Assembly (NCBI GenBank): GCA_903876875.1 | Contig: CAIRBT010000133.1 | Coordinates: forward strand, 1 to 34,185 | Reading direction: 5' to 3' | Source of the DNA: an uncultured Geobacteraceae bacterium | Lineage (GTDB): Bacteria > Desulfobacterota > Desulfuromonadia > Geobacterales > Pseudopelobacteraceae | Length of the DNA stretch: 34,185 nucleotides | Translations under genes and position numbers: made by a program | The notes under the pieces: generated by a model | Databases searched by the model: none | Told to the model about the DNA's origin: nothing | Seen by the model: only the letters and a program-made list of their open reading frames with translations | Part shown: piece after piece, positions 9,042 through 33,617 of the stretch | Position numbering within the stretch: position 1 is the stretch's first letter | Layout: every line of letters begins with the position of its first letter

Positions 9042-9377
9042 CTATTTGTGCCCATACCGGATCACGGTCGCCTTCTCCAGGGTGATCATCCCCCCTGCCA
9101 TCATGGCGTCAATACGGGGCATTATGGCATCAATTTTTTCCTGGCTGTCAACGACCTCCACCACCAGCGGCAGGTCGGCCGAAAGATCCAGTAGTTTCTG
9201 ACTATGGTAGACCCGGGTGGCACCAAAACCACAGATGCCGCGCAGGACGGTGGCACCGGCAAACTGTTCCCGCCGCAGTAATTCAACCAGTGCCTCAGAG
9301 AGCGGTTGATGGCCGTGGCGATCACTTTCTCCGATAAAAATCCGCATCAGCACCTGTTCACCAATCAATTTTGTCAT
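9042..9377 (-). CDS. DUF190 family protein linked to CrcB
   Basis: A 111-residue cytoplasmic protein with the DUF190 (PF02641) hallmarks: LMRIFIGESDRHGHQPL near the N-terminus, AGATVLRGICGFG in the middle, and PLVVEVVDS toward the end. The fold is PII-like (ferredoxin-like trimer). The family is repeatedly found beside crcB, and its precise role in fluoride resistance is unknown. The ATG overlaps the crcB stop by four bases (ATGA), so the two are translationally coupled. GAGGATG provides the ribosome site. Confidence 0.9.
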   Translation of the reverse strand: MTKLIGEQVLMRIFIGESDRHGHQPLSEALVELLRREQFAGATVLRGICGFGATRVYHSQKLLDLSADLPLVVEVVDSQEKIDAIMPRIDAMMAGGMITLEKATVIRYGHK

Positions 9378-9751
9378 GGTAACATCCTCACGGTAACAAT
9401 ACCGAGCCAGGTAAACAGCAAGCAGACCGCCACACTTGCCAGCACATTGGCAAAGGCGACCAGAAACCGGCCATCTTCCAGCAGGGTAAAGGTTTCGTAG
9501 CTAAAGGTGGAAAAAGTTGTTAAACCACCGAGAAAACCGACCGTCAAACCAAGCCGCAGGGTATCGGAAAGCAACGTACTCCGGAGACCCAGCTCCATTA
9601 TCAACCCGATCAGATAGGCACCGATAACGTTGACCGCAAAGGTTCCGTAGGGAAAGGACCGCCCCAGCAGGGAATAGACCCACCCGGACAGGTAGTAGCG
9701 GGTCAGACCACCTCCCGCACAACAGACAGCTATGGTCAGTGCCGTTCTCAC
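9374..9751 (-). CDS. crcB: Fluoride channel CrcB/Fluc
   Basis: 125 residues with four hydrophobic helices. The family motifs are visible: GGGLTRYYL (helix 1), GTFAVNVIGAYLIG (helix 2, with the conserved Asn) and GFLGGLTTFSTFSYE (helix 3, with the TTFSTF break that forms the fluoride/Na+ site). It forms dual-topology dimers that export fluoride across the inner membrane. The start is GTG 9751, with AAGGAA seven bases upstream. I looked for a fluoride (crcB-type) riboswitch upstream and did not find a convincing one. Confidence 0.95.
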   Translation of the reverse strand: MRTALTIAVCCAGGGLTRYYLSGWVYSLLGRSFPYGTFAVNVIGAYLIGLIMELGLRSTLLSDTLRLGLTVGFLGGLTTFSTFSYETFTLLEDGRFLVAFANVLASVAVCLLFTWLGIVTVRMLP

Positions 9752-9908: not shown

Positions 9909-9942
9909 GTGTTACTGAAAGGGTATTGCCATCCAATAACAC
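9909..9942 (+). promoter_or_regulatory. Overlapping small hairpins in the cbiQ leader
   Basis: GTGTTA (9909-9914) can pair with TAACAC (9937-9942), while TATTG (9924-9928) can pair with CAATA (9934-9938). The two stems share two bases, so they partly compete. They lie 27 bp before the preferred cbiQ start. There is no match to a B12 riboswitch core. Confidence 0.25.
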
Positions 9943-9968
9943 TACCCTACCGGGGGATTCTGCAGACC

Positions 9969-10781
9969 ATGAATGCCATCACCACCGCCGTTATTGACTT
10001 GAAACAGCTTGAGCTGTTCGCCCAGGGGGACACACAGGTTCACGGACGGGATGCCCGGGTCAAGGTGTTGGTAACACTGTTTTTTATTCTTTCCGTCATT
10101 TCTTACCACCGCTATGAAATCAACGGTCTGCTCCCTTTCACCCTCTTCCCGATCATTATGGTGTGCCGGGCAGAACTGCCAATTCCCTATCTTGCCAGAA
10201 AAATGCTCCTCATCTGCCCGTTCATACTGCTGATTGGTGCTTTTAATCCACTTTTGGATCGTAGTACCCTCTGGCAGGTCGGTTCAATCGAAATCAGCGG
10301 CGGCTGCATATCACTCCTTTCCCTGCTGCTTCGCTCCTTTCTTACCATCGGAGCGGCACTCATTCTGGTGGCGACCACCGGTTTCACCACCATCTGCCAG
10401 GCACTGGAGCGCCTCGGTATGCCGGAGGTTTTTACGGTGCAACTGCTGTTTCTCCATCGCTATCTGTTCGTACTTGCCGAAGAGGCCGAACGGGCCTCCC
10501 GGGCACGGGAACTCCGAAGTTGCGGCAGCACAGGGAGGGGGATCGGTAGCTTTGGATCATTGACCGGCCACCTGCTGCTCCGCACCTGGCAACGGGCGGA
10601 GCGGATACATACCACCATGCTGTCACGGGGTTTTACCGGACAGTTCCACGGTCAACGTCGGGAGCGGTTCAGTCACGCGGATCTTACGTTCCTCATCAGC
10701 TGGAGTGTCACCTTTCTACTCATGCGCACCATGGAACCGGCAACACTGCTCGGCAGCTTCATCACCGGTGCTTTCCCGTGA
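9969..10781 (+). CDS. cbiQ: ECF transporter transmembrane (T) component, CbiQ-type
   Basis: About 270 residues with several hydrophobic helices and the two cytoplasmic coupling segments of EcfT/CbiQ proteins: ERASRARELR and MLSRGFTG (Ala-Arg-Gly-type motifs that dock into the ATPase). It links the ATPase to a substrate-binding S component in cobalt/nickel or vitamin uptake. The start is placed at ATG 9969 (MNAITTAV), with GGGGGA upstream, rather than the GTG at 9909, which lies in a hairpin and adds a non-hydrophobic tail. cbiO follows with a GTGA overlap. No S component (CbiM/CbiN or other) is encoded in this window, so the substrate is not certain. Confidence 0.88.
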   Translation: MNAITTAVIDLKQLELFAQGDTQVHGRDARVKVLVTLFFILSVISYHRYEINGLLPFTLFPIIMVCRAELPIPYLARKMLLICPFILLIGAFNPLLDRSTLWQVGSIEISGGCISLLSLLLRSFLTIGAALILVATTGFTTICQALERLGMPEVFTVQLLFLHRYLFVLAEEAERASRARELRSCGSTGRGIGSFGSLTGHLLLRTWQRAERIHTTMLSRGFTGQFHGQRRERFSHADLTFLISWSVTFLLMRTMEPATLLGSFITGAFP

Positions 10782-11536
10782 GCCACCATATCGTTGAGGT
10801 GAAAAATCTCCGCCATGTCTACGCCGATGGCACCGTGGCACTTGATACGGTCTCCTTTCGTATTACCCATGGTGAATCAGTTGCCATTATCGGCGCCAAC
10901 GGGGCCGGAAAATCGACACTGCTCCAGCACTTAAACGGCTGTATCACGGCCACTTCAGGGGAGGTTTTTATCGGCCACATCCCCCTCACCCGTAACACCC
11001 TCCCCGCGATCCGCCGTACGGTTGGTATGGTTTTCCAGTATCCCGATGACCAACTCTTCATGCCCACGGTGTTTGAAGACGTGGCCTTCGGCCCCCGCAA
11101 TCAGGGACTGCCGGAGGAGCTGACCGCCGAACGGGTCAGGGAAGCCCTGGAGCTGGTGGGTGCCGCACACCTCGCGTCAAAGCCCCCCTACCATCTATCC
11201 GGCGGCGAAAAGAAACGGGTAGCAATCGCCACGGTGCTGGCCATGTCACCCGACGTGCTGGTCATGGACGAACCGACCAGCGGTCTGGACCCCTTCGCAC
11301 GGCGACAACTTATGGGGCTGCTCCGGGAATTTCACCACACGAAGATCTTTACCAGCCATGACCTGGATATGGTACTTGAGCTCTGCCCACGAACCATCAT
11401 CCTCCACGAAGGAATTATTATGGCCGATGGAGCCACCGCTGATATCTTCGCCAATGACCACCTGCTTGCCGCCTGTCGACTGGAAAAACCTTTTGCTCTC
11501 CAGGGGTGCCCAGTGTGCCGCACATCAACTAATTAA
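10778..11536 (+). CDS. cbiO: ECF transporter ATP-binding (A) component, CbiO-type
   Basis: 252 residues with Walker A GANGAGKST, a Q-loop in VFQYPDDQLF (typical of EcfA/CbiO), signature LSGGEKKRVAIA, Walker B VLVMDEPTSGLD and the switch His in FTSHDLD. It powers the CbiQ membrane component. It starts at a GTG that overlaps the cbiQ stop, so the two subunits are coupled. The C-terminal CPVC pair is unusual but of unknown meaning. Cobalt is the usual CbiQO substrate; other metals or vitamins are possible because no S component is adjacent. Confidence 0.92.
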   Translation: MSHHIVEVKNLRHVYADGTVALDTVSFRITHGESVAIIGANGAGKSTLLQHLNGCITATSGEVFIGHIPLTRNTLPAIRRTVGMVFQYPDDQLFMPTVFEDVAFGPRNQGLPEELTAERVREALELVGAAHLASKPPYHLSGGEKKRVAIATVLAMSPDVLVMDEPTSGLDPFARRQLMGLLREFHHTKIFTSHDLDMVLELCPRTIILHEGIIMADGATADIFANDHLLAACRLEKPFALQGCPVCRTSTN

Positions 11537-11662: not shown

Positions 11663-12424
11663 ATGAAGCGTACTATCGTAGGATCTCTTGTGGCACTTGT
11701 TCTGTCGACGACAGCTCTGTATGCAGCAGATGAAATCAAGGTTGGCGGTGGCGGTGCTTCAATAGCCACGGTTTTCAAACCGGTTAAGTCCCATTTTGAG
11801 AAGGATACCGGAAGCATCCTGGTAATTTCCCAGAGCACTCCCAAAAATGGTCTCATTGATTTAATGAATGGCACCGTCGATGTGGCAACAGCCGGAGTTC
11901 CCCTCGAAGCAATGATCAAGGGGGCGGAGAAGGAAGGGGTTAAAGTTAACGCTGCCGCTCTGGAAAGCAAGGTAGTAGCGGTCAATCGTACCGTAGTGCT
12001 GGTTCACCCCTCCAATTCTGTGCAGACCCTGACAAAGGAGCAGCTGAAAGGGATTTTCACCGGAAAATTTGTTAACTGGAAAGAGGTCGGTGGCTCCGAC
12101 TCCCCCATTCTGGTTGCGTGGGGCAAACTGACACCGGGGCAGAACGCCCAGTTCAGTGCCAAAATTCTTGACGGTGAAGCGGTCATGAAGGACATCATTG
12201 ATACCACCGACTATTTCGGCATTAAGGATACCGTGGCAGCAACACCCGAAGCTATCGGCATCGACCCGTTCGCGCTGGGAGCCGACGGCACAGTGAAAGT
12301 TCTACTGACAGAACCGCCGCTTAACTCCGATATTATCGTCGTCACCAAGGGTAAACCTTCGGCGAAAGCACAAAAACTCATCTCATACATCACCGGTGCC
12401 GGAAGTAAATATATCATTAAATAG
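11663..12424 (+). CDS. PstS-like periplasmic solute-binding protein
   Basis: 253 residues beginning MKRTIVGSLVALVLSTTA-LYAADE, a clear Sec signal peptide with cleavage after Ala. The start at 11663 is chosen over 11645 because AAGGAGAAGG precedes it. The mature part has the PBP_like_2/PstS layout: VGGGGASIATVFKP at the first ligand loop and LTKEQLKGIFTGKFVNWKEVGG in the second lobe. The phosphate-contact S-G-T signature of true PstS is not present; the equivalent stretch reads KLTPGQNAQF. The ligand is therefore probably not free phosphate, or the site is remodelled. No ABC permease or ATPase is nearby. Instead a chemoreceptor follows after 43 bp, so it may be a sensory binding protein. Confidence 0.85.
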   Translation: MKRTIVGSLVALVLSTTALYAADEIKVGGGGASIATVFKPVKSHFEKDTGSILVISQSTPKNGLIDLMNGTVDVATAGVPLEAMIKGAEKEGVKVNAAALESKVVAVNRTVVLVHPSNSVQTLTKEQLKGIFTGKFVNWKEVGGSDSPILVAWGKLTPGQNAQFSAKILDGEAVMKDIIDTTDYFGIKDTVAATPEAIGIDPFALGADGTVKVLLTEPPLNSDIIVVTKGKPSAKAQKLISYITGAGSKYIIK

Positions 12425-12467
12425 CCTTCATGTAGGCTCTGAGTAGTGTCGTACAAGGAGGAAAACT

Positions 12468-14933
12468 TTGAAAATCCGGACGAAACTTCAGCTGAATCTG
12501 CTTATGATTTCACTGGTTATTACTGCGGTGGTCGCCTCAAGTGTCGTAGGTATGCTCTTTGTGAGGGGCAAGCTCACCTATCTGACCCAGCAGAGCGCTC
12601 CCTACCAGACGCGCACAGCGGAGTTTCAGAGAGCTCTCCAGAGAGTCGGTGGTGAACTGGTAGAGACCACCATAACCCGGAGCACCAAGGAATATCAGGA
12701 GGCACGGGTTCAGACAGATAAGGCTTTGACTGAGCTTAAGACAAGTAACGAACAGCTGCAGGCACTAAAAAGCAGCGACAGTACGGCGTACATTGAGATG
12801 GAGAAAAGTGCCCGAGAGCTGTTTACCGTAACCGAGAGCCGCCTCAAGGCGGAAGCCGAAGTATCCGATATTGACACCAAACTCTATGAAGTGCTTGACA
12901 AGGTTGAAACCAACATTAAAGAGCTTGATGGCCGAATCAGAAAACTTCAGGAAGACCGAAGTGCCGTCTATGCCGGTTCACTCAAGGAGAGCAAAGTATC
13001 GGTCACCCGTCTGCGTGACATTGAAGTTTTCAAGACGTATCTGAATGAACTGCTCCACACGGTAAATGATATCCAAAAAGCGGCTGACCGCAAAGGTGTG
13101 TTGATGGCACGGAGCCGTTACACCGTTGCCCTGACAAAGGCGTTTCAATGCAGTTACCCGAAGAACTCCCGGAAAATCTCCGAGGAGTTAAAGAAACTCT
13201 CAGATTTGGTTGATGAACTGATCAAACTCAAAAGTGTTTCCGCTATTGAGGTGGCTGCCAAAGCCCGTATTGATAGCATTAATAGTGAGCTGGGGGAAAA
13301 AAACTCCCTTATCCTTGTGGAGATTGATCAGTCGACAACGGCCTTTTCCGATAAGAACAAACGGGAAGATGATCAGCTGGGCATGAGTTATGGTGCCGCC
13401 AATGCAGCCACCAGTATCCGGCTCGGCATGGCCGAATATCTCTCCCTCAGCATTGTCGTGGCCCACATGGCAGACCATCTGGCATTGGCAAAAAGCAGCA
13501 ACGATGTTGACGCAGCGCAAAACGAGCTGAACATCGCCTTTACCCGCTGTGAAACACTCCGGAAAAGCATGGAACAGCTGCTGGCTCGCCTCTCTGCCCA
13601 GAAGGAAGCCGGACTGCTGCGCAACGCCGTCGCCTCCTTCCAGACCGCCCGGCAGACCATCAGCGGCGACGATGGCTACATCGCAAAAGTACGCAAAAAA
13701 ATCGCCATGATCGAAGAAGCAACTCGTCTTAATACCAAGGTACGTCAGCAGATAGATGCCCAGGCAGCACAAGGGCGTGTCACCATCTCCGCAGCCCTTG
13801 GCGATCAGGAAAAAGCCATTGCGTCGGTCAACAGTATGAGCCGAAACTCCATCATTCTTGTCGTGGTAATCGGCCTCTGCTCGCTGCTTATCGGCATTTT
13901 CTTTGCAATCATGCTCAATCGCGCCCTCTTTCGCCCCATTGAGGAACTGTCTGCCCTGGCGGGTGAATTTGGTAACGGTAATTTCACCATAGTGCTTGAC
14001 GAAAGCCGGAAAGATGAATTTGGTGAACTGGGCATACACTTCAATCAGGCAAGTAAACGACTCCTTGAAATGGCGAGCAAACTTACCATAGCCATTGCCA
14101 ATCTTGCATCCAACTCGTCACAGCTCACCAGCACTGCACGGGAATTATCATCAGGTGCCCAGGAACAGAGCCGTCAGACGTCCCAGTCTGCCACCGCACT
14201 CACCGAAATGAGCCAGACCATCTCAGAAGTTGCCGACCACGCCCTGGGGGCTGCCGATGCCTCCCGTCAGACACTGGATAAGGCGGCAAACGGCAGTCAG
14301 GTGGTGGGAAAAGCGGTGCAAGGTATGGAGCAGATCGCTACCGCCGTGGAAGAGGCGGCCAGTCACATCAAGGCACTGGGGTCAAGTTCCGAGCAGATTG
14401 GCTCCATTATTGGCGTAATTAACGATATTGCCGATCAAACCAACCTGCTGGCTCTTAATGCCGCCATTGAAGCGGCCCGTGCCGGTGAAGTCGGCAAAGG
14501 CTTCTCCGTGGTTGCCGATGAAGTGCGCAACCTTGCCAACCGGACTACGGAGGCGACGGCTCAAATTTCCAACATGGTGCTGGAAATTCAGGCGGTAACC
14601 AGCAAGTCGGTTATTGCCATGGAGGTCGGTAATGGCCGTGTGGTGGCAGGGGTTAAACTGGCCAGTGAGGCGCGCCAGTCTCTTGATGATATTGTTGAGG
14701 CATCGGGACGTGGTGCATCCATGGTGAAACGGATCGCCACCGCCACCGAAGAGGAATCGGTAGCCGCCCAGCAGGTCGCCTCCAGCATGGTTAATATCGC
14801 CGATATCACCCACAAAACGGAGCAGTCCATGGAGGAAATCAGTCACGCCTCACTTGAACTAAACAAGATTGCCACCGAATTGTCCCATATGGCGTCATGG
14901 TTTAAAACCGGCACCATCATACCGGCAGCGTAG
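12468..14933 (+). CDS. Methyl-accepting chemotaxis protein with very long periplasmic domain
   Basis: 821 residues. TM1 lies near residues 9-30 and TM2 near 462-486, leaving about 430 largely helical residues outside the membrane, far more than the usual 150-250. A HAMP domain ([20 protein letters not shown]) and a cytoplasmic signalling hairpin follow. Its tip reads [20 protein letters not shown], the CheA/CheW-binding core, then [13 protein letters not shown]. Translation starts at TTG 12468, with AAGGAGG six bases upstream. No pentapeptide for CheR/CheB tethering is seen at the C-terminus. It is paralogous over its whole length to the protein at 29031-31448. Operon position suggests that it reads the PstS-like protein encoded just upstream. 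Confidence 0.92.
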
Positions 14934-15793: not shown

Positions 15794-16116
15794 CCAGAAC
15801 TGACCGTCGATTAATGTTAAGTTTATTTTAATCTAACCCACCATATCTTATAACTGAATCGGTCGTACCCCTTCCACTATTATTTCGCATCCGTTTCGCT
15901 CACCCACAATCAACACCGCATAGTGCACGCCATAAGTTTAGCCCCTTTAATTACCCATTCCCAATAAAATCTAACAATGTTCTATATACCGCAGAAAAAT
16001 AAAAAATCTATATGTAATATCTTGTGATTATTATAATTTCTGATATAGAATAGAGACACACTGTTTAACGATAGTGAAAAAGTTGATGTATGGCGAACAT
16101 GCTAAGGGAGGAGTCA
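15794..16116. other. 323-bp AT-rich intergenic region before the beta-oxidation operon
   Basis: No coding frame of note. No strong terminator follows the pirin gene. Near its right end there is a plausible promoter (16022-16051), followed by a GGGAGGAG ribosome site for hbd. Confidence 0.6.
16022..16051 (+). promoter_or_regulatory. Candidate promoter of the hbd-crt-acd-emo-etfBA operon
   Basis: TTGTGA (16022-16027), 18 bases, then TAGAAT (16046-16051), 66 bp before the start. A second TATAAT-like hexamer lies inside the spacer, so the exact start is uncertain. Confidence 0.4.
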
Positions 16117-16962
16117 ATGATGACAACAATAGGCGTTCTTGGAGCGGGGCAGATGGGCAACGGCATCGCCCATGTTTTTGCACAGTATGGCTTTCAGGTG
16201 GTACTCTTTGACATAGCCCGGCCACAGTTGGAAAAGGCCCTTGTAATCATCAGGCAGAATCTGGAGCGACAGGCAAAAAAAGGGGCTCTTTCAGCGGAAC
16301 TGGTGGGTGAAACCATGGGGCGTATCACCACGACCCAGGATATGAACGACCTCTCTTCCGTTGATCTGGCGGTAGAAGCGGTCACCGAATATGAGCCACT
16401 CAAACTGGATATATTCCGGAAACTGGATGGCATCGTCAAGGCCGGTGCAATTTTGGCGTCAAACACATCATCAATTCCCATAACCAAAATTGCTTCGGTC
16501 ACCGGTCGTCCGGACAAAGTCATCGGTATGCACTTCATGAACCCGGTGCCGGTCATGAAGTTAGTGGAAGTAATCCGTGGTCATGCCACAAGTGACGAAA
16601 CCTTTGCCCGGATAGCCAAACTGGTAACCCACATTGAAAAAGAGCAGGCCGTTTCCCAGGACTATCCCGGCTTCATCGTTAACCGCATTCTGATTCCGAT
16701 GATTAATGAGGCGGTGTTTGCCCTCTACGAAGGGATCGCCACAGCGGAAGACATCGACAAGGGGATGAAACTGGGCACCAACCAACCCATGGGGCCGTTG
16801 ACGCTGGCTGATTTTATCGGCCTTGACACCGTGCTGGCCATCGCCAATGTGCTGTATGACGGCTACAAAGATCCGAAATACCGCCCCTGCCCCCTGCTGG
16901 TCAAAATGGTCAACGCCGGATATATGGGACGTAAGTCGGGGCGCGGTTTCTATACCTATTAG
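16117..16962 (+). CDS. hbd: 3-hydroxybutyryl-CoA dehydrogenase
   Basis: 281 residues. The NAD-binding turn GAGQMGNGIAHVFAQYG is at the N-terminus, with catalytic His and Glu in GMHFMNPVPVMKLVEVIRG. The Asn-containing SNTSSIPI and the C-terminal GRKSGRGFYTY are standard for the family. It interconverts 3-hydroxybutyryl-CoA and acetoacetyl-CoA. The start is ATG 16117 (MMTTIGV), with GGGAGGAG upstream; the 16090 frame adds a tail containing that site. It is the first gene of a six-gene operon with short gaps (10-25 bp) and ribosome sites before most genes. Confidence 0.93.
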   Translation: MMTTIGVLGAGQMGNGIAHVFAQYGFQVVLFDIARPQLEKALVIIRQNLERQAKKGALSAELVGETMGRITTTQDMNDLSSVDLAVEAVTEYEPLKLDIFRKLDGIVKAGAILASNTSSIPITKIASVTGRPDKVIGMHFMNPVPVMKLVEVIRGHATSDETFARIAKLVTHIEKEQAVSQDYPGFIVNRILIPMINEAVFALYEGIATAEDIDKGMKLGTNQPMGPLTLADFIGLDTVLAIANVLYDGYKDPKYRPCPLLVKMVNAGYMGRKSGRGFYTY

Positions 16963-16983
16963 TTTTCATCGGGAGGAATAGCC

Positions 16984-17766
16984 ATGGAATACAAAAATAT
17001 TCTGTTCGAGAGCAATGACGGCATCACCCTCATGACCATCAACAGCCCTCGCACCATGAATGCCCTTAATAGCGAGATTCTAGGCGAACTGGAAGCCGCC
17101 TGTCAGCAACTGGATCGGGACGGCAGCGTCAAAGTCGTTATTATTACCGGTGCCGGTGAAAAGGCCTTCGTTGCCGGTGCCGACATCAAAGAGATGTCCC
17201 GGATGAGTTCCTTTGAGGGGGCGGAGTTTGCCCGCAAGGGACAGCGGGTTATGACGCGCATCAACACAATGCGCAAGCCGGTAATTGCCGCTGTCAACGG
17301 CTATGCCCTCGGTGGCGGCCTGGAACTTGCCCTGGCGTGCGACTTCATCTATGCGTCTGAAAAAGCCCGCTTCGGCTTTCCTGAAGTGGGACTAGGTATC
17401 ATCCCCGGCTTTGGCGGCACCCAGAATCTGGCACGACTGATCGGGCCAAGCAGGGCAAACGAGCTGATTTTCTCCGGGCGTATGATCACTGCGGAACAGA
17501 GCTTCTCCTGGGGAATTATCAATGTGCTCTGCCCCCCTGAAGAGCTGATTTCACGGACGCTGGCAACGGCGCGGGAGATTACCACCAAGGGTTCCCTCGG
17601 TGTGGCCTTTGCCAAGGATGTCATCCTGAACGGCTTGAACATGGCCAAGGAAGATGGCTTCCGCTACGAAGCGTCGCTGTTCGGCGTGCTTTTTACCACG
17701 GAAGATCAGCTTGAGGGCATGGCTGCCTTCATGGAAAAACGTACGGCGGTTTTTCAAGGCAAATAA
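16984..17766 (+). CDS. crt: Enoyl-CoA hydratase (crotonase)
   Basis: 260 residues. The oxyanion-hole segments are AGADIKEM and GYALGGGLELALACD; the catalytic Glu region is PEVGLGIIPGFGGTQNLARL. Both hydratase glutamates are in place (GGLELA and PEVGLG). It hydrates crotonyl-CoA to 3-hydroxybutyryl-CoA. GGGAGGAA precedes the ATG, 21 bp after hbd. Confidence 0.93.
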   Translation: MEYKNILFESNDGITLMTINSPRTMNALNSEILGELEAACQQLDRDGSVKVVIITGAGEKAFVAGADIKEMSRMSSFEGAEFARKGQRVMTRINTMRKPVIAAVNGYALGGGLELALACDFIYASEKARFGFPEVGLGIIPGFGGTQNLARLIGPSRANELIFSGRMITAEQSFSWGIINVLCPPEELISRTLATAREITTKGSLGVAFAKDVILNGLNMAKEDGFRYEASLFGVLFTTEDQLEGMAAFMEKRTAVFQGK

Positions 17767-17789
17767 AACGATAACACGGAGGAATTACC

Positions 17790-18929
17790 ATGGATTTTGA
17801 ACTGAGCCAGGATCACAAGGTACTACAATCGGCGGTGCGGGACTTCGTAGAAAAAGAGATTAAGCCGATTGCCATGAAAATTGATGAAGATCATGCCATC
17901 CCGGATGCACTGGTACAAAAAATGAGCGACATGGGCTTTCTCGGCAGTTACCTGCCCGAGGAATACGGCGGAGCAGGACTTGACATGCTTTCCTATGCCA
18001 TTGTTGTTGAAGAAGTTTCTAAAGCCTGTGGGTCAAGTGGTGTGTTGATCTCCGCCCACACCTCCCTTGCCAGTGGCCCCATTTATACATTCGGCACCGA
18101 GGAGCAGAAGAAAAAATGGCTTCCCCCCCTGAACAGCGGCGAGAAAATCGGCTGTTTTCTCTTGACGGAACCGGGAGCAGGCAGTGATGCCGGTGGAACC
18201 GCCACCACGTACAGCCGTAATGGGGATCACTTTGTCATCAACGGCAGCAAAACGTTCATTACCAACGGCGGCTATCTGGGCACCGGTATCCTCATCGCCT
18301 CCTTTGATCGCAGCCTCAAACACAAGGGGATCAGTGCCTTCATCGTCGACCTGCAATCGCCCGGCGTCACCATTTTGAAAAACGAAAACAAAATGGGCAT
18401 CCGGGGTAGTTACACCACCGCCTTTGCCTTTGATAACCTGCGGGTGCCGGTTGAGAACCTGCTGGGGCAGGAAGGCAAAGGATTTAACGTTGCCATGGAC
18501 ACCCTGAACGGGGGGCGCATCGGCATCGCCTCACAGGCTTTGGGAATCGCCGAAGGTGCCTTTGAACGTGCCCTCGCCTATTCCAAAGAGCGCAAACAGT
18601 TTGATCAGGCCATCTGTGAATTCCAGGCGATTCAGTTCAAACTGGCAGATATGTGGACCCGCATTGAAACGAGCAAGCTGCTGACCTATAAGGCGGCATG
18701 CCTGAAAGATGCCAAGAAGAACTACACCATGGAATCGGCCATGTGCAAAATGCACGCCTCGGAAACGGCAACCTTTGTCACCAAAGAGGCGATGCAGATC
18801 CATGGCGGTTACGGCTACATTGCCGACTACGAGGTTGAGCGGATGTACCGGGATGCCAAAATCACCGAGATCTACGAGGGCACCAACGAAGTTCAGCGCG
18901 TCGTTATCTCCAAGCTGCTGTTGTCGTAA
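17790..18929 (+). CDS. Acyl-CoA dehydrogenase (short-chain, butyryl-CoA type)
   Basis: 379 residues, the usual length. The FAD/substrate motif CFLLTEPGAGSDAGG and the catalytic base Glu in IYEGTNEVQR mark the butyryl/short-chain group; GGYGYIADYEVERMYRDAK is also typical. It oxidises acyl-CoA to the 2-enoyl-CoA and passes electrons to ETF, encoded at the end of the same operon. Chain-length preference is inferred from the crt and hbd neighbours. GGAGGAAT precedes the ATG. Confidence 0.92.
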   Translation: MDFELSQDHKVLQSAVRDFVEKEIKPIAMKIDEDHAIPDALVQKMSDMGFLGSYLPEEYGGAGLDMLSYAIVVEEVSKACGSSGVLISAHTSLASGPIYTFGTEEQKKKWLPPLNSGEKIGCFLLTEPGAGSDAGGTATTYSRNGDHFVINGSKTFITNGGYLGTGILIASFDRSLKHKGISAFIVDLQSPGVTILKNENKMGIRGSYTTAFAFDNLRVPVENLLGQEGKGFNVAMDTLNGGRIGIASQALGIAEGAFERALAYSKERKQFDQAICEFQAIQFKLADMWTRIETSKLLTYKAACLKDAKKNYTMESAMCKMHASETATFVTKEAMQIHGGYGYIADYEVERMYRDAKITEIYEGTNEVQRVVISKLLLS

Positions 18930-18941
18930 ACCGGGGTTACC

Positions 18942-20930
18942 ATGGAAGCTACCCGTCACATATACTGGAATGTGGGCCATTCTGTTGTCATCCCGATGTA
19001 CCTCATGGCCTGTGCCGCCATCGGCTGGATGGCGTGGGGGTTCTGGCAGCGGTTACCGCTCTGGCGTCAGGGGAAGTCACTTAACCGCTGTGACAATTAC
19101 GACCTGCGGGTGAAACGGATGCTAGCCGAGGTGTACGGGCAGATTAAAGTGTCCCGGGTCACCGATGGCGGCCTGTTCCATGCCCTCTTTTTCTGGAGCT
19201 TCCTGCTGCTCTTTGCCGGGACACTGGTAATAATGATCCAGGCTGATGTGGTCACCCCCCTGACTCACCTTAACATCCTGTCAGGCGAATTTTATAACAT
19301 GTTCTCCCTGCTGCTTGATCTGGCCGGAATCCTGGCAATTATCATGCTGGCAGGGCTCTTTATCCGCCGCTTCGTCATACAGCCGAAGGGACTGGAGATC
19401 GTTAAAGATGATTACCTCGTTCTCCAGCTCCTCTTCGCCATCCTCATCAGCGGTTTTTTGATCGAAGGTGCCCGGATGGCCGCCACCGAACTGCACCAGA
19501 ACCCCGAGTTGGCGCGTTTTTCTCCCGGGGGGCTCCTGGCCGCCTCCCTCTTCGCGGCACTGGAGCCGGACGCCTTGCTCATCACCCATAAGATCCTCTG
19601 GTGGTTTCATTTCGTACTGGTACTCGGTTTTTTTGCCGCCATTCCTCGCACGAAATTACGTCACCTGTTCACCACCGCCGCCAATGCCTTTTTCGCCCCC
19701 TTGGAACCGAAGGGTACCATCGCCACCATTAATCTTGAGGATGAAACGGTGGAGCAGTTTGGTGTCACAACCATCACCGACCTTACTTGGAAAGACATCT
19801 TTGACGCCGATGCCTGCACCTCCTGCAAGCGGTGCCAGGAGTGCTGCCCGGCATACCGCACCGATAAACCACTTTCCCCCATGAAAATGGTGAAACAGCT
19901 CGGTGAATATGCGGAAAACAACCCGGGTGGCAACCTCATTGAGGCCGTCAGCCAGGAGGCACTCTGGTCCTGCACAACCTGCCGTGCCTGTCAGGACATC
20001 TGTCCGGCCAACGTCGAACATGTCAATAAAATTATCGAGATGCGTCGCAGCCTGACCCTCATGGAAGGTGCCTTCCCCGGTGATGAAGTGCGTACCGCCG
20101 TCAATAACATTGAGGTAAACGGCAATCCCTTCGGCCTTGCCTATGCAGCCCGTGGCGATTGGGCCGCCTCCCATCAGGTGTCAATTATGGGACAGGACAG
20201 CGATGTGGATATCCTCTATTTCGTCGGCTGCTACGCCTCCATTGACAAGCGAAATCAGATAATTGCCGGTAACTTCATCAAAATCTGTGCTGCGGCCGGT
20301 ATTAAGGTCGGTATCCTTGGTAAAGAAGAAAAATGCTGCGGTGAACCGGTCAGAAAGCTGGGTAATGAATACCTGTACCAGATGACCGCCACGGAAAATA
20401 TTGAGATGATCAAGGCCTATGGCGTTAAAAAAATCGTCACCACCTGCCCCCACTGTTTCAACACCCTGGCTCGTGATTATCGGGATCTGGGGCTGGCTAT
20501 CCCGGTCGAACATTACAGCACCTATATCCATACCTTGCTCATGAGCGGCAGGCTGCATCTGACACCAAAACCGTTCCCCTTCACCTACCATGACTCCTGC
20601 TATCTTGGCCGCTACATGGATATTTTTGATCAACCCCGGGCCGTTCTGGCACAGGCGGGGGGGATACTTACCGAGATGGACAGACATGGTTCCGACAGTT
20701 TTTGCTGCAGTGCCGGCGGGGGGCGTATCATCGCCGAAGAAAAGCTGGGAAGTAAAATCAGCGAACTCAGAGTCAAAATGGCCACCGACACAGGAATGCC
20801 GCTGCTGGTTTCAAACTGTCCCTTCTGCCTGAGTATGTTTGAAGACGGCATCAAAACCGGCGGAGCGGAAGGAAAACTGCGGGTAAGGGATCTTGCCGAG
20901 ATTGTGGCAGAGCGGATAACGAATTCATAA
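18942..20930 (+). CDS. Membrane FeS oxidoreductase, likely ETF:menaquinone oxidoreductase (EMO type)
   Basis: 662 residues. The first ~240 carry about five hydrophobic helices (NarI-like cytochrome-type membrane domain). Then two ferredoxin-type clusters follow: CTSCKRCQECCP and CTTCRACQDICP, both C-x2-C-x2-C-x3-CP. The C-terminal half has two CCG (HdrB-like) repeats with CCGEP, CPHCFNTL, HDSCYLGR, CCSAGGGR and CPFC. This architecture matches the membrane DUF224/HdrD-like proteins beside etf genes in Geobacter and Syntrophomonas, reported to move electrons from reduced ETF to (methyl)menaquinone. Its place between the dehydrogenase and etfB fits that job. Confidence 0.88.
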   Translation: MEATRHIYWNVGHSVVIPMYLMACAAIGWMAWGFWQRLPLWRQGKSLNRCDNYDLRVKRMLAEVYGQIKVSRVTDGGLFHALFFWSFLLLFAGTLVIMIQADVVTPLTHLNILSGEFYNMFSLLLDLAGILAIIMLAGLFIRRFVIQPKGLEIVKDDYLVLQLLFAILISGFLIEGARMAATELHQNPELARFSPGGLLAASLFAALEPDALLITHKILWWFHFVLVLGFFAAIPRTKLRHLFTTAANAFFAPLEPKGTIATINLEDETVEQFGVTTITDLTWKDIFDADACTSCKRCQECCPAYRTDKPLSPMKMVKQLGEYAENNPGGNLIEAVSQEALWSCTTCRACQDICPANVEHVNKIIEMRRSLTLMEGAFPGDEVRTAVNNIEVNGNPFGLAYAARGDWAASHQVSIMGQDSDVDILYFVGCYASIDKRNQIIAGNFIKICAAAGIKVGILGKEEKCCGEPVRKLGNEYLYQMTATENIEMIKAYGVKKIVTTCPHCFNTLARDYRDLGLAIPVEHYSTYIHTLLMSGRLHLTPKPFPFTYHDSCYLGRYMDIFDQPRAVLAQAGGILTEMDRHGSDSFCCSAGGGRIIAEEKLGSKISELRVKMATDTGMPLLVSNCPFCLSMFEDGIKTGGAEGKLRVRDLAEIVAERITNS

Positions 20931-20953
20931 TCAACACTTTTGGAGGTATTCAG

Positions 20954-21730
20954 ATGAAATTACTTGTCTGTGTCAAACAGGTTCCTGACATGGAATCCCG
21001 CTTCAAACCTGACGCCTCGGGCGTATGGTATAATGAGGCCGATCTTGCGTTCCGTATGAACGAGTATGATGAATATGCAGTGGAACAGGCGGTGCGCCTC
21101 CGTGAAGAGCTGGGAGAGGGTACCCTACTCACCGTACTCTCCATCGGCCCTGATCGGGTGGTTGAAACCATTAAAAAAGCCTTGGCTATGGGGTGCGACA
21201 ACGCCGTACATATTCAGGACACCACGGTGTCAGCCAAAGATCCGTGGCAGATTGCCTCAATTATTGCAACATATGCTCAAGACAAACAGTTCGACCTGAT
21301 ATTTACCGGCATGCAATCACAGGATCGGGGCTCGGCACAGGTTGGAGTTACCGTGGCAGAATTACTGAAATTTTCCTGTACGACGACTATTGTCGGCTTT
21401 GCCTACGACAGCTGCACAGTAACGACAAAGCGTGAAATAGAAGGGGGCATCAAGGGAGTTGTCACATTGAAGACTCCGGCACTTGTTACCTGTCAACTGG
21501 GGCTGAATATACCCCGTTACCCCACATTACCGAATATTATGAAGGCAAAGAAGAAAGAAATTGTCGCCATTCAGGTAACTGATTTTATGACAACAGAATC
21601 GCGGGTAACCACCACACATTTCCATTCACCCATGAAAAAAAGTGGCGGAATTGTTCTTGAGGGGGATGTGGGGGAACTTGTTGATAAGGTACGGGCAATT
21701 CTTAAGGAAAAATCCCTGGTATTACGGTAG
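20954..21730 (+). CDS. etfB: Electron transfer flavoprotein beta subunit
   Basis: 258 residues. It starts MKLLVCVKQVPDMESRF, with the MNEYDEYAVEQAVRLRE and TGMQSQDRGSAQVG segments typical of EtfB, which binds AMP in ordinary ETFs. TGGAGG precedes the ATG, 23 bp after the FeS oxidoreductase. With EtfA it carries electrons from the acyl-CoA dehydrogenase to the membrane oxidoreductase. A bifurcating type cannot be excluded from sequence alone, but the neighbouring quinone-side enzyme argues for a simple carrier. Confidence 0.93.
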   Translation: MKLLVCVKQVPDMESRFKPDASGVWYNEADLAFRMNEYDEYAVEQAVRLREELGEGTLLTVLSIGPDRVVETIKKALAMGCDNAVHIQDTTVSAKDPWQIASIIATYAQDKQFDLIFTGMQSQDRGSAQVGVTVAELLKFSCTTTIVGFAYDSCTVTTKREIEGGIKGVVTLKTPALVTCQLGLNIPRYPTLPNIMKAKKKEIVAIQVTDFMTTESRVTTTHFHSPMKKSGGIVLEGDVGELVDKVRAILKEKSLVLR

Positions 21731-21739
21731 GAGGCAGCC

Positions 21740-22651
21740 ATGAAAACCATATTGATCGGTGAATATCGCGAAGGAAAAATGCTGGACGCAACATATGAAC
21801 TGTTCGGGTTTGCCCGGCAACTGGGGGGTGAAACCGTGATGTTCCTGGTCGGAGACGAAACCGTGCTCCCTGCCTATGACGGCACCCTGTATCTGGCGGA
21901 GGCGGTACAGTGCGGTGAGTACAATCCGGAACTGCACAAAAAACTGCTCCTGGAAACGGTACAGAAAGAGAATCCGGACAACATCGTTTTTATCCACTCT
22001 TCCTATGGCTGGGATCTGGCACCACGGGTTGCTGCGGCCCTGAAAGTTGCCCAGGTGTCTGAAATAGTCGACATTATCGATGGTGGCTTCGAGGTTGGCT
22101 GTTGTAACGCCAAGATGCGCCGTACGGTTACACCGGCAACGTCACGGGCCGTGCTCACCATCCAGACGGGAGCATTTCCAGCAGTGCAGCCCGGTGGCAC
22201 ACCGGCAGTCATAAAAATCAGTAGTGACAGTGACGGCTCGCTCACGTTTGTCGGCTATGAACCTGCTGACAAGAAAGATGTCGATCTGGCCAAAGCAGAC
22301 ATCATCGTCAGTGCCGGGCGGGGTGTCGGCAAAAAGGACAATATCGCCATTATTCAGGCTTTGGCAACGGCTTTAGGTGGTGAGCTGGGAGCAAGCAGGC
22401 CGGTGGTCGATGCCGGCTGGGTACCCCACAATCAACAGGTAGGCACCACCGGACAGACCGTATCACCGAAACTGTACATCGCCTGCGGCATAAGTGGAGC
22501 CATTCAGCATGTGGCCGGTATGAAAAAAGCCGACTTCACCCTTGCCATAAACAAGGACAGGGACGCTCCCATAGGCGAGTTTGCCGATGTGCTGGTGATT
22601 GCCGACGTCATGCAATTTGTCCCCGCCTTAACGGCAAAGATTGCACAATAA
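21740..22651 (+). CDS. etfA: Electron transfer flavoprotein alpha subunit
   Basis: 303 residues. The FAD-binding C-terminal signature is complete: SAGRGVG, GASRPVVDAGWV, QVGTTGQTVSPKLYIACGISGA and INKDRDAPIG. It is a little shorter than many EtfA proteins, with a compact N-terminal domain and no ferredoxin insert. It pairs with EtfB. A 9-bp gap and GTAGGAGG link it to etfB. It is the last gene of the operon; the next gene is convergent 33 bp away, and I see no clear terminator between them. Confidence 0.93.
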   Translation: MKTILIGEYREGKMLDATYELFGFARQLGGETVMFLVGDETVLPAYDGTLYLAEAVQCGEYNPELHKKLLLETVQKENPDNIVFIHSSYGWDLAPRVAAALKVAQVSEIVDIIDGGFEVGCCNAKMRRTVTPATSRAVLTIQTGAFPAVQPGGTPAVIKISSDSDGSLTFVGYEPADKKDVDLAKADIIVSAGRGVGKKDNIAIIQALATALGGELGASRPVVDAGWVPHNQQVGTTGQTVSPKLYIACGISGAIQHVAGMKKADFTLAINKDRDAPIGEFADVLVIADVMQFVPALTAKIAQ

Positions 22652-29030: not shown

Positions 29031-31448
29031 CTAAAACTTAAACCACTTTGCAGAGTCATTGAGATGCGTTGCAGTTACAGCCAACTCTTGCGCCGATCGT
29101 TTGACGTCGGAAAAAGCAGTTTTAATCTCACCGGATGAATCTGCAATGCCAGCCATCACTTTGGTAATTTCTTCAGAGGTTACCGACTGTTCCTCTGCCG
29201 CAACCGCGATTCTGTTGATCATTTCTGCTATATTTTCCATATCTTCAACAATTTTATCAATGGAAAGAACAGCGTCATTCACCAGAGAAACGACATTATC
29301 CACCGCGCCGTTTTCTTCCGTAATAAGGTTAACCGTCTCCTTGACGCTAGATTGCATATCATTAATCCTTGTCACAATATCACCGGTAGCGTCGCTTGTT
29401 TTAATCGCCAACCCACGTACTTCGTCGGCCACAACAGCAAAACCGCGCCCCATATCACCGGCGCGGGCTGCTTCAATAGCAGCGTTAAGGGCAAGAAGAT
29501 TGGTTTGATCGGCAATAGTATTGATCAAGGAAATGACACTGCTTATTTCTTCCGATTTTTTACTGAGAGATTGGATATTTTTTGCTGATGTTCTGATTAT
29601 TTCGGCAAAACTGTGCAGTTCATTTACCGCACCATGCATTTTCCCCCTTCCATGCAGTGCGGTTTTTTTCATGGATGAAGCGGTCTCGGCCGTACTATTG
29701 ACGTTGTTGGCAACGTTATTAATGGTTTGTGACATCTCTGCCATCGCCGTTGCAGAATGTTGGATTTCCCCTGCCTGCTCGTCAGCACCGTGTTCTAACG
29801 CATTGGCGGTACTGGATAGTTCTTCAGAGTTACTGGCCAATGTATCCGTAGCCTGACCTATTTCTTTGGCGATATGACGAAGATTAGCCACCATCTCGGC
29901 CATCGCTTTTTCTACCTGGCCAATTTCGTCATTCTGGCTGGTATCAACAACACAATTAAGATTGCCGGCTGAAATTTGTTTGGCAGTCGTGAGAAGACGT
30001 AACAGAGGAGACGAAATTGCCCGATACATCCAGGCACCGAATGCCATACCGAAAGCTATGGCCAAACCTCCGATAAGGAGAATCAGGGAGAGGCTTTTTC
30101 GAATCATACTATTGACCGCAGTGATGGATTTTTCCTGCTCATCATGGGCTGTCAGCTCAGTCTGCTTGCCCTTTTCAGCGAGCTTGACCACAATCTCACG
30201 CAGTAGTGAAGCTTCTTTACCAGCCTGTTCATGTAAAGAAATCTTCTGCTTTACCTTTGCGGCAATACCATCAGCGGCGACAACTGCGGCTTGCACACCG
30301 GCAAGAGCTGCAGTTGATTTTTTCAACGTGTTGAGCTCGTTGAGTGCCTTGATCTTCTTCAGATCACGTTCAAGATTTACGGTAGATTTTGCAATTTTTG
30401 CATACTGAGAATTAATCTGCCCCAGGAGGACATCAACCTCCTGGGTGGAGCTCAGATTGAAAAGCCGCGCGACCATCCCATCTATGGCCGTACCGTTGGC
30501 AACCAGTTCAGCATTGTTTGAGAGCGCATTCACGGCAATACTAGACTGGGTAAAGTTGATCCCTTGTTTTCCGGAAGCATCTGCAACTTTTTCATTCACT
30601 TTTTCCAGATCGGTATCAATTAAGGTAATGAGCGCGTCGAGCTTTTCCTGAAGTTCACTGAGCATCCCGTCCGCCTTAACACCATCACCACCTGTTCGCG
30701 CAGAGAAATACTCCTCGGTCTTTACTGCCAGACTTTTAATTTCATCACGCACCTTCTGACTACCCCGAACGTTGTTATTTTGCTGAACTCTGTCCAACAG
30801 AGCCTTTGCCTGTGACCTGTAACGTTTGGCATTACCACGCTGAGATTGCAGAATAACCACCATAACATCACGCAGCTGGGTTTTAGCCATGGCAAGGCTC
30901 GCCTGCTTGTCTGACATGCTATTACGGATTTCTACGGAAGATTCATAGGTTGCAGAACTGGTCAGTCGGAGAGCCTGTACTTTGCTGTCCAGATCCTTCA
31001 ACAGAGTAAGTGCTTCGTTCAGTCGCTGAGAAATCACATGGGCAGCCTGTGCAGCTTGTTCGTCTGCAGTAAGGCTTCCATCGATCGTCTTCGTCAGGTT
31101 ACCGTGTACCGTTGAAAGTTCGGCATAGGCACTATATTTCTCGCCCGACATACTTTCAAGGGACTCCTGAACTTTGTTGACGGTATCAAGAGTTTTTTCC
31201 GATTCCGACTTTAACGTCGTGAATTCAAGTTTATTTCGTGCGCCGCTTATCTTTATCAGGTCAGCAGAGGCACCCTGGGCTGCCCGTTGCAGCTCCAAAG
31301 TTTTAAGCTGGAATGGGGTACTTTTCTCGGTCAAATATGCCAATTTATTCTTAATAAAAGTCATACCGAAATAGCTTGTGGTGGAAATCGCAACGGAGAT
31401 GCCAACAACAATGGCAACATTCATAATCAATTTGGTTTTTATCGTCAT
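29031..31448 (-). CDS. Methyl-accepting chemotaxis protein, paralogue of the one at 12468
   Basis: 805 residues. TM1 near residues 9-29 and TM2 near 448-470 enclose about 420 helical periplasmic residues. HAMP ([20 protein letters not shown]) and a signalling hairpin with tip [20 protein letters not shown] follow. Right after TM1 both paralogues carry K-L-x-Y-L-T-x-x-S-x-P-[FY]-Q, and both end with a W-F-K near the C-terminus, so they share origin along their length. The start is ATG 31448 (MTIKTKL) with GGGGT upstream. It lies between the rhodanese gene, separated by a hairpin, and the thiolase-like gene, 42 bp after this stop. Confidence 0.92.
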
Positions 31449-31482
31449 CTTTACCCCACGAGAGTGCCAAGCGCACAATAAT

Positions 31483-31508
31483 AAAGGGCATTGCGAACAA
31501 TGCCCTTT
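31483..31508 (-). terminator. Hairpin between rhodanese and chemoreceptor genes
   Basis: A perfect 11-bp stem (AAAGGGCATTG / CAATGCCCTTT) with a TTCG loop on the minus strand, followed by ATTATTG. It lies 29 bp past the rhodanese stop and 34 bp before the receptor start. The U-tract is imperfect, so it may attenuate or stabilise the rhodanese mRNA rather than stop all transcription. Confidence 0.6.
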
Positions 31509-31537
31509 GCATTACCAAAGCGATACAGGAATAGCCG

Positions 31538-32017
31538 TTACTCCACAGGATTACCGGCTTTTTTCCATGCCGGTATACCGTCACGATACCAATAGAGGTT
31601 TTTAAAACCCAGCTGGGAGAGCATCAGGGCAACCGAGGGTGATCTCCAGCAGTGGGTACCATTGCAATAGAGCAGATACTCCTTGCTTTTATCGAGGTTC
31701 TTTGCCAGCCCGGGGTTATCAATAAGCGTGTCACAGAAGAACAGCTTGGCACCTGCAATATGCTCAGTATCAAACTGGGTCTTGATTCGATTGTCGAGAA
31801 AAACAACCTTTTTCTCTTTGAGCAGCTTCAACGCCTCAGTCGTATTGACATTTTTCACACCCGGAAGAGATGCAGGCATATCCTTCTTTATCTCGGCATC
31901 AGCCTTCATCGCCATAATTTTATCCATTATATCATCGGAGTATCCTTCTTCAGCAAACGCACATACTGCTGTCATGAGAACCACCAATCCTGCAACCATC
32001 AGTACTATTTTTTTCAT
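31538..32017 (-). CDS. Exported rhodanese-like sulfurtransferase
   Basis: 159 residues beginning MKKIVLMVAGLVVLMTAVCAFAEE, a Sec signal peptide with an A-x-A cleavage site, so it is periplasmic. One rhodanese domain follows: VVFLDNRIKTQFDTEHIAGA and the active loop YCNGTHCWRSPSVAL, in which a Cys followed by Trp-Arg-Ser recalls the PQQ-associated CXXCW rhodaneses. The start is ATG 32017 with AAGAAGGTGG upstream; the frame from 32059 overlaps the promoter. It probably moves sulfane sulfur or senses it. The gene next in the same direction is a chemoreceptor. Confidence 0.88.
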   Translation of the reverse strand: MKKIVLMVAGLVVLMTAVCAFAEEGYSDDIMDKIMAMKADAEIKKDMPASLPGVKNVNTTEALKLLKEKKVVFLDNRIKTQFDTEHIAGAKLFFCDTLIDNPGLAKNLDKSKEYLLYCNGTHCWRSPSVALMLSQLGFKNLYWYRDGIPAWKKAGNPVE

Positions 32018-32065
32018 AAGGCCACCTTCTTTGTAAAAGAATAAACTGCTCATAAACATTTTCCC

Positions 32066-32508: not shown

Positions 32509-32973
32509 TCACTTCCTTTGATGGATGCTACACGTTTCGCTCTCACAGGTATGTCGTTTCGGCAGATAAGGTCGAACACGGGCGAACAGCCAGTAACCAA
32601 TGCGGGCTAACCGGTTTACCACCGGCAACTGAATGATGCGCCCCATGATACCGTAGAGTGTCGAAGTCGGGAATGCCTGCCATATGGCCCAGAATGAGTC
32701 AACCCCTTTGAACACCTGTCCATCCTGATCAATGGCATGCAACTGGTGCATGAAATCAGTGAGCGCAATCTGGTACGGAGCCGAGTCAAAATCAGGGGAA
32801 CTGATGTCAATTGCCACCAGATTTTCCCCGTTATCTATCCTCAGGTAGTGTTCAATCTCGGTAGCACAGAGGACGCAGGAGCCATCGTAGAACACTCTAA
32901 GCGGGAAACGTGGCACTCTCACTGAATGAGTGGGCTTACCCGTAACATTACGAAAGGTTAGCCCCTTAGTCAT
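32509..32973 (-). CDS. DCC family thiol-disulfide oxidoreductase-like protein (DUF393)
   Basis: 154 residues. The DCC signature is at about residue 29: LRVFYDGSCVLC (D-x-x-C-x-x-C), with DISSPDF and VFKGVDSFWAIW following as in PF04134 proteins. A Cys-rich tail (CESETCSIHQ) is present. The fold is thioredoxin-like; function is not established for most members. The ATG at 32973 overlaps the stop of a 14-codon leader ORF (ATGA). The SOUL gene lies upstream on the same strand, so the two are probably co-transcribed. Confidence 0.85.
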   Translation of the reverse strand: MTKGLTFRNVTGKPTHSVRVPRFPLRVFYDGSCVLCATEIEHYLRIDNGENLVAIDISSPDFDSAPYQIALTDFMHQLHAIDQDGQVFKGVDSFWAIWQAFPTSTLYGIMGRIIQLPVVNRLARIGYWLFARVRPYLPKRHTCESETCSIHQRK

Positions 32974-33014
32974 CCCCACACCATGGTCTGCTCATCGATT
33001 TCGTGTAAGTTCAT
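32970..33014 (-). CDS. 14-codon leader ORF coupled to the DUF393 gene
   Basis: ATG 33014 has a strong AAGGAGATAGT site and reads MNLHEIDEQTMVWG, ending in a TGA that overlaps the next ATG. The DUF393 gene has no good site of its own, so translation likely enters here. It may be a truncated gene rather than a designed leader. Confidence 0.4.
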   Translation of the reverse strand: MNLHEIDEQTMVWG

Positions 33015-33039
33015 ACTATCTCCTTGATGACAATCTCTG

Positions 33040-33600: not shown

Positions 33601-33617
33601 GGCAGTAGTCACTCCTG

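Follow-up and report, generated by a model that had tools for sequence, protein, structure and literature searches.

A PstS-like binding protein encoded with a chemoreceptor in an uncultured Geobacteraceae bacterium, and a receptor family with exchanged periplasmic partners

Here we analyse a gene pair in which a PstS-like periplasmic binding protein (PBP) is encoded just ahead of a chemoreceptor. The pair comes from an uncultured Geobacteraceae bacterium and lies on contig CAIRBT010000133.1 (C133), the whole of which, 34,185 bases of a 3.93-Mb draft genome, is called the window in this text. A first-pass annotation, made from the sequence of the window, had proposed that a PstS-like protein is followed 43 bp on by a chemoreceptor with a large external part, and that the binding protein is paired with this receptor instead of with a transporter. 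The arrangement itself was confirmed by the open reading frames, by the PF12849 domain of the first protein and the HAMP and MCPsignal domains of the second, and by the 43-nt gap between them (Table 1). Beside a rhodanese gene of the window there is also a second receptor from this sensory family, which that annotation had left unmentioned.

The gene pair and its binding protein

Each gene of the pair has a ribosome-binding site 6 nt upstream of its start codon, AAAGGAG for the PBP and AAGGAGG for the first receptor, and the TTG start of the receptor agrees with the MKIKTKL-type start of its relatives in the family alignment. A promoter and terminator scan found no terminator-like site in the gap between the two genes, and the sites that it reported were not above the number found in shuffled sequence, so co-transcription of the pair is suggested only by the spacing. 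A pirin gene lies 8 nt downstream of the receptor; in the closest relative, an uncultured Geobacteraceae metagenome-assembled genome (MAG; locus L076) whose receptor is 83% identical to that of the window in its sensory part, a 283-aa gene is found at that position.

The first receptor has two hydrophobic segments, at residues 5-34 and 456-489, which contain the transmembrane helices TM1 and TM2, followed by a HAMP domain (483-533) and an MCPsignal domain (597-781), both above the Pfam cut-offs, and it is on these grounds a methyl-accepting chemotaxis protein (MCP). The positions of the hydrophobic segments leave an external part of about 420 residues (about 35-455), compared with ~430 residues in the first-pass annotation.

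Table 1. Position and main characteristics of the two receptors of the window and of their neighbouring partner genes
Feature	Position	Strand	Characteristics
PstS-like periplasmic binding protein (PBP)	11663-12424	+	253 aa, ATG start; presumed input subunit of the first receptor
Intergenic gap, PBP to first receptor	12425-12467	+	43 nt; AAGGAGG ahead of the receptor TTG
First receptor (chemoreceptor)	12468-14933	+	821 aa, TTG start; HAMP and MCPsignal (Pfam)
Second receptor, same sensory family	29031-31448	-	805 aa from the ATG at 31448; sensory profile 415.9 bits; HAMP and MCPsignal
Secreted rhodanese-domain protein	31538-32059	-	173 aa as listed; PF00581, 53.9 bits; YCNGTHCWRS loop; presumed input of the second receptor

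Upstream of the PBP gene, on the same strand and 126 nt away, are the genes for CbiQ and CbiO, the T component and the ATPase of an energy-coupling factor (ECF) transporter. Transporters of the ECF type are not fed by periplasmic binding proteins, and CbiQ/CbiO were therefore rejected as the transporter of the PBP. The ECF pair is to this extent a caveat to the earlier claim that neither permease nor ATPase accompanies the PBP. Among the neighbours scanned around the ECF genes (9909-11536, plus strand) there was no substrate component. Another open reading frame of the genome, near Tup-type genes on contig C46 (L037, 3462-4478, minus strand) and beginning MHMADALLSPAVGG, appears CbiM-like by eye.

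What kind of binding protein is the PBP? It scores 60.6 bits against PF12849 (cut-off 27) and carries a single N-terminal hydrophobic segment (residues 4-23), which is signal-like and has no cysteine near its end. Its AlphaFold2 model (pLDDT 94.0) has a PstS-type fold, and the best Foldseek matches of the model are PstS-type proteins, with E values from 1.4e-19. The protein shares with PstS the PBP_like_2 domain and the fold, but not the loops, the pst neighbours or the curated score: against TIGR02136 it reaches 73.4 bits, under the cut-off of 206.6, whereas the genome's own PstS reaches 257.1. The latter is one of four PF12849 proteins in the genome and is encoded on contig C152 in a PstS-PstC-PstA-PstB-PhoU operon, in which 5/5 proteins are above their NCBIfam cut-offs; given this separate operon, the window PBP was rejected as the PstS of the genome. 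Another of the four is encoded on contig C46 ahead of permease and ATPase genes; TupA is its nearest model, against which it scores 241.5, under the cut-off of 400. The last, on contig C16, is 38% identical to the window PBP and is encoded 24 nt ahead of a receptor of the same sensory family. Two of the four proteins thus belong to Pst and Tup-type operons, and the other two stand beside two of the three family receptors of this genome, for which the hypergeometric probability among its 37 MCPsignal matches is 0.0045.

The first-pass annotation had further stated that the S-G-T contact with phosphate is replaced, and this was confirmed. In an alignment with the genome's own PstS, the fourth loop reads R..S-G-T in PstS and G..P-G-Q in the window PBP, and the other three loops differ too: S-D-T against G-A-S in the first, where a serine of the window PBP stands at the hydroxyl position T50, G-S-S-T against T-P-K-N in the second, and M-S-R against A-G-V in the third. 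The residues that hold phosphate are taken here to be those of E. coli PstS. Across 55 members of the PBP family, the window included, R180 is never kept, S184 and S96 are kept in 3 members each and S78 in 10, and the family has a consensus of its own at the S-G-T loop, with an asparagine at the next position in 48/55. As judged from these alignments, most members of the family have a largely remodelled phosphate site, with conservation of another loop. The ligand of the window PBP is probably not phosphate, and the altered loops of most family members lend support to the first-pass suggestion of another ligand.

The same data bear on the idea that the PBP is a spare substrate-binding protein (SBP) of a distant ATP-binding cassette (ABC) transporter, for example the PstCAB of the genome, and that its place beside the receptor is incidental. 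Orphan SBPs of ABC systems exist, and the PstS-type fold would be in keeping with such a role. However, PstCAB has an adjacent PstS of its own which is above the PstS cut-off, while the window PBP is below it, the phosphate loops of the window PBP differ, and the pairing with this type of receptor recurs at 57/80 loci, whose flanks were not systematically annotated for transporter genes. We therefore consider a spare SBP very unlikely.

Recurrence of the pair

The neighbours of the family receptors were compared in two samples. Sample one comprises 79 distinct family receptors from 76 genomes of the window's family, after exclusion of L037 and L038 (no receptor), of L205 and L222 (duplicate regions), of rows below 150 bits and of repeated N-terminal parts; two of its loci, L221 and L060, run into contig ends. 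A PBP accompanies 53/79 of these receptors and an sCache_2 protein 2/79. A rhodanese was assigned to 4/79, a number which includes a spurious row (L161, a 465-aa downstream protein unlike the short secreted ones), so that rhodaneses of the window type are found in 3/79. The remaining 20/79 have none of these partners, and 3 of these 20 have other secreted binding-type partners. When the receptors are divided by their sensory score, 46/46 are partnered at 500 bits or more (44 with a PBP and 2 with a Cache protein), 7/18 between 350 and 500 bits and 6/15 between 150 and 350 bits, which makes 13/33 under 500 bits.

Sample two, a receptor-first scan of named genomes, covers 80 of 126 confirmed matches, with the best receptor taken at each locus. 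Here a PBP is present at 57/80 loci (49 with a PBP only and 8 with both a PBP and a rhodanese), 7 loci have a rhodanese only and 16 have neither. The samples overlap, since 33 of the 80 loci are also in sample one. The other 47 loci include 32 with a PBP (24 with a PBP only, 8 with a rhodanese in addition), 6 with a rhodanese only and 9 with neither, so that a PBP or a rhodanese is found at 38/47 loci outside sample one. Most hosts belong to the Geobacteraceae (among them Geomonas, Oryzomonas and Trichlorobacter thiogenes) or are Nitrospirota MAGs; the pairing of PBP and receptor is thus present in two phyla and, within the window's phylum, in other families too. The sensory family is patchy in its distribution, occurring in 20/395 genomes sampled across that phylum.

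The pairs themselves were analysed at 56 of the 57 PBP loci (L085 has a fragment only) and thinned to 26 non-redundant ones. The nearest PBP gene is upstream of the receptor in 45/56 pairs and downstream in 11/56, with a median gap of 51.5 nt, and at several loci (L087, L121 and L150, for example) two or three PBPs accompany a single receptor. Chance pairing was rejected because of the recurrence in both samples and the hypergeometric value given above, and our results show that PBP and receptor form a recurrent module. Recurrence in two phyla and the separate Pst operon both support the view, already taken in the first-pass annotation, that the PBP is paired with a chemoreceptor rather than with a transporter. 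A family PBP was also seen without a receptor, beside a Tll0287-PAS-HisKA-HATPase-receiver kinase (L046, 6503-10012).

Exchanged partners and outputs

The second receptor of the window is 31% identical to the first (BLASTP 344 bits, 248/813 identical) and comes after the gene for the secreted rhodanese. This rhodanese has a hydrophobic segment at residues 11-39 of the listed protein, and by eye a start at residue 15, near 32017, appears likelier. The nearest NCBIfam model, PQQ_CXXCW, gives 51 bits against a cut-off of 128.05, so the protein belongs to no named NCBIfam subfamily, and a search of PDB sequences returned five weak matches (best E 6e-6). A rhodanese homologue is encoded directly upstream of 15/80 sample-two receptors, and the motif YCNGxxCxRS is present in 16/16 aligned rhodaneses, that of the window included. 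Both types of partner and the chemosensory genes come together in a Nitrospirae MAG (L078), where the gene order is CheA - CheW/CheZ - PBP - rhodanese - receptor - CheB.

Between the rhodanese and second receptor genes of the window (31449-31537, minus strand) there is a perfect 11-bp hairpin, AAAGGGCATTG-TTCG-CAATGCCCTTT, which by eye may be an attenuator or a partial terminator. Genes for a DCC1-like thiol-disulfide oxidoreductase and a SOUL haem-binding protein are found near this pair (32509-33612, minus strand).

Other loci have other partners. An sCache_2 protein is encoded directly upstream of the receptor in L137 and L138, and by the second gene upstream in L144. Within about 100 nt upstream of more distant receptors there are genes for proteins of the Peripla_BP_6 (L183, L193, L195 and L203), DctP (L187) and Tll0287-like (L184) types, and the remaining distant receptors scanned have housekeeping genes or nothing recognisable upstream; the Pfam scans of neighbours covered chosen proteins. 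On the tree of the sensory domains, 15 changes of partner label account for the 89 rows, whereas each of 200 shuffles required more, so partners are conserved inside clades and replaced between clades; the tree is a quick one, made without a mixture model, and gives a warning of long branches meeting.

Two further kinds of neighbour were seen, each at two loci. A 150-aa protein is encoded downstream of the receptor in L136 (8470-8922) and in L168 (5558-6010). Residues 26-86 of the L136 protein match PBP_like_2 positions 90-155 with an E value of 0.0015, below the cut-off, and it may be a half-size binding protein; the L168 protein had no match. A multihaem cytochrome-like gene lies directly upstream of receptors with no recognised partner in L125 (4504-5871) and L162 (4570-5937).

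The outputs are exchanged as well. An MCP signalling match was found in 63/79 family proteins of sample one, and the MCP part can be preceded by repeats of HAMP_2, 6 in L133 and 8 in L147. In L139 and L152 the receptor-like protein ends in a GAF domain, has no MCP domain and keeps its PBP, and in L152 it is encoded beside a 4HB-GAF-HisKA-HATPase-receiver kinase. Next to the MCPsignal proteins counted above, the genome of the window gives 6 CheA-dimer matches, and therefore has several chemosensory pathways. It could thus be that the sensory unit is real and that its output is other than swimming, through a pathway for pili, matrix or gene expression, which would be compatible with the explanation favoured below. 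The number of CheA-dimer matches and the GAF-ending relatives, one of them beside a hybrid kinase, point in this direction, whereas the MCP signalling match of most family proteins, which does not tell the pathways apart, points away from it; we regard such an output as possible, if the less probable one.

Elsewhere in the window, a CrcB-type fluoride channel gene overlaps a DUF190 gene with weak P-II similarity (9042-9751, minus strand), and a run of hydroxyacyl-CoA dehydrogenase, enoyl-CoA hydratase, acyl-CoA dehydrogenase, Fe-S oxidoreductase and electron transfer flavoprotein (ETF) alpha genes occupies 16090-22651 (plus strand).

The outer domain and proposed indirect sensing

No Pfam family was found on the outer part of the first receptor at E 0.01, and the sensory profile gave nine weak matches against PDB sequences (best E 0.015), none of them a receptor. 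The AlphaFold2 model of the outer domain has a pLDDT of 86.6 and a pTM of 0.59; it consists of helices throughout, with long ones at residues 107-204 and 262-339. The top rows of a VIA-align search with this model are TorS from the TorS-TorT complex (3o1j_A; Z 18.1, 2.7 Å, 266/273 residues). In the same search McpZ has Z 15.6 with a root-mean-square deviation of 8.9 Å over 331 residues, so that it resembles the model as a large helical chemoreceptor sensing domain and differs from it by this deviation, and McpS and PilJ have Z of about 13. With Foldseek, McpZ (8f7n) is the sole match under 1e-3 (E 5.5e-6), and TorS comes next at 0.014. The modelled outer domain thus resembles in its fold a known reader of a binding protein, a likeness which is no proof that the receptor does the same.

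In E. coli, TorT-TorS is a precedent for a binding protein read by a sensor, in the sensing of trimethylamine-N-oxide, and torS and torT are neighbours in E. coli K-12. Both there and here a periplasmic binding protein is encoded beside its reader, presumed in our case, and the helical outer domains have a similar predicted architecture; TorS, however, is a sensor histidine kinase, the domain of the first receptor is about 150 residues longer, and no sequence similarity was found on either side. The precedent named in the first-pass annotation, CtpL and PstS of Pseudomonas, is a real one but not the nearest, since CtpL reads the ordinary PstS of a transporter and the predicted sensory fold is nearest to TorS. 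According to the sections of PMC4926252 consulted, the ligand-binding domain (LBD) of CtpL, of 286 residues, binds PstS 1:1 with a dissociation constant (KD) of 3.7 µM and does not bind phosphate itself, and the P. aeruginosa PstS that it reads is the transporter protein encoded beside pstABC. Compared with CtpL as there described, our system likewise has a PstS-type protein as presumed chemoreceptor input, but a dedicated PBP encoded with the receptor, altered phosphate loops and an outer part of about 420 residues. The SBP-activated sensor kinases described in the consulted part of PMC11113362 also show a pairing of SBP and receptor genes, but in our family the two genes stay together from genome to genome, and most of the receptors are MCPs.

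No description of this receptor family, of a chemoreceptor with a rhodanese partner or of a sulfur carrier as chemoreceptor input was found in the literature searched, which consisted mostly of titles and abstract openings and included few subscription journals. PstS and rhodanese are absent from the consulted main text of a review of Geobacter chemotaxis (PMC8396549), and the consulted sections of PMC3543383 mention rhodanese only for a cytoplasmic sulfur enzyme. Binding-protein-fed chemoreceptors are known already; what is new is that a receptor family has a partner encoded beside it, that partners of unrelated folds are swapped and that the presumed input can be a rhodanese.

Could the first receptor bind its ligand directly, the PBP being co-regulated but separate, for example in scavenging the same nutrient? 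The helical McpS, of similar fold, was solved with malate or succinate (2yfa, 2yfb), and the sample-one receptors that have no recognised partner would fit this explanation. However, the partner changes (PBP, rhodanese, sCache_2, Peripla_BP_6, DctP) while the sensory domain remains one family, and exchangeable partners on a constant sensory domain are as expected if the domain reads proteins. Besides the ECF genes, moreover, no transport genes adjoin the PBP in the window. Direct binding with a separate PBP seems to us unlikely.

We propose that the PBP and the first receptor are, with high probability, one sensory unit for indirect sensing, and that the family reads exchangeable soluble periplasmic sensors. 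The PBP probably tastes a chemical on the receptor's behalf and does not serve in its import. The PBP would be exported, its cleft would bind a small molecule, probably not phosphate, and the loaded (or empty) protein would dock on the receptor's outer domain with its long helical build; the resulting change would reach CheA by way of TM2, the HAMP domain and the MCP tip, with a chemotactic output. The receptor family would read mostly PstS-like proteins, and some of its members rhodaneses, free Cache domains or other binding proteins.

Several observations weigh against this proposal. The glycine (G185) and the threonine (T186) of the S-G-T loop are kept in 38/55 and 27/55 members of the PBP family, and since many relatives keep them, phosphate or another oxyanion may be the ligand of some. 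A PBP, rhodanese or Cache partner is lacking in the 20/79 sample-one receptors (21 without the spurious row), and 16/80 in sample two lack both PBP and rhodanese, or 13 discounting the Cache cases. Both samples were searched with a profile, A1, whose source was a set of loci with a PBP; among the 46 top-scoring rows in sample one, 20 match A1 rows and the other 26 do not, and 14/80 sample-two receptors match them. The correlation between the distance matrices of PBPs and receptors goes from 0.54 with the 56 pairs to 0.23 with the 26 thinned ones (permutation fraction 0.051), and the sign of coevolution is then weak. On the structural side, the VIA-align list that is headed by TorS also gives designed four-helix proteins Z values of up to 16.5 (162 residues), so the match to TorS is strong chiefly by its coverage. 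An hhalign comparison of the outer domain with E. coli TorS as a single sequence gave a probability of 0.5%, and no sequence similarity was found between the PBP family and TorT, so that we claim a resemblance of fold only. Finally, in the consulted part of PMC11113362, no binding is reported for the tested P. aeruginosa pairs of SBP and sensor kinase encoded side by side, and such neighbours are described as not always functionally linked.

What would such a family do with its different partners? A broader reading, which we hold with more doubt than confidence, is that of one family with a TorS-like docking domain which leaves ligand specificity to secreted subunits that differ in fold and can replace one another (PstS-like, rhodanese, free sCache_2, Peripla_BP_6, DctP and Tll0287-like), sometimes with several subunits per receptor. 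Because the rhodanese input would be an enzyme-like sulfur carrier with the YCNGxxCxRS loop, the rhodanese members, the second receptor of the window among them, might respond to a periplasmic protein according to its persulfide or redox state, and this would be chemotaxis to reactive sulfur by way of a covalently modified subunit.

For many bacterial chemoreceptors no ligand is known, and a screen of the isolated outer domain will fail where a loaded protein is what the receptor really binds. Where the partner is encoded beside the receptor, it is clear which protein should be screened first, in cultured Geobacteraceae. If our proposal is true, the swapping of partners and outputs on one sensory domain would be a natural series for locating the docking sites of soluble sensors, and the rhodanese members point to a sulfur carrier as the input of a chemoreceptor.

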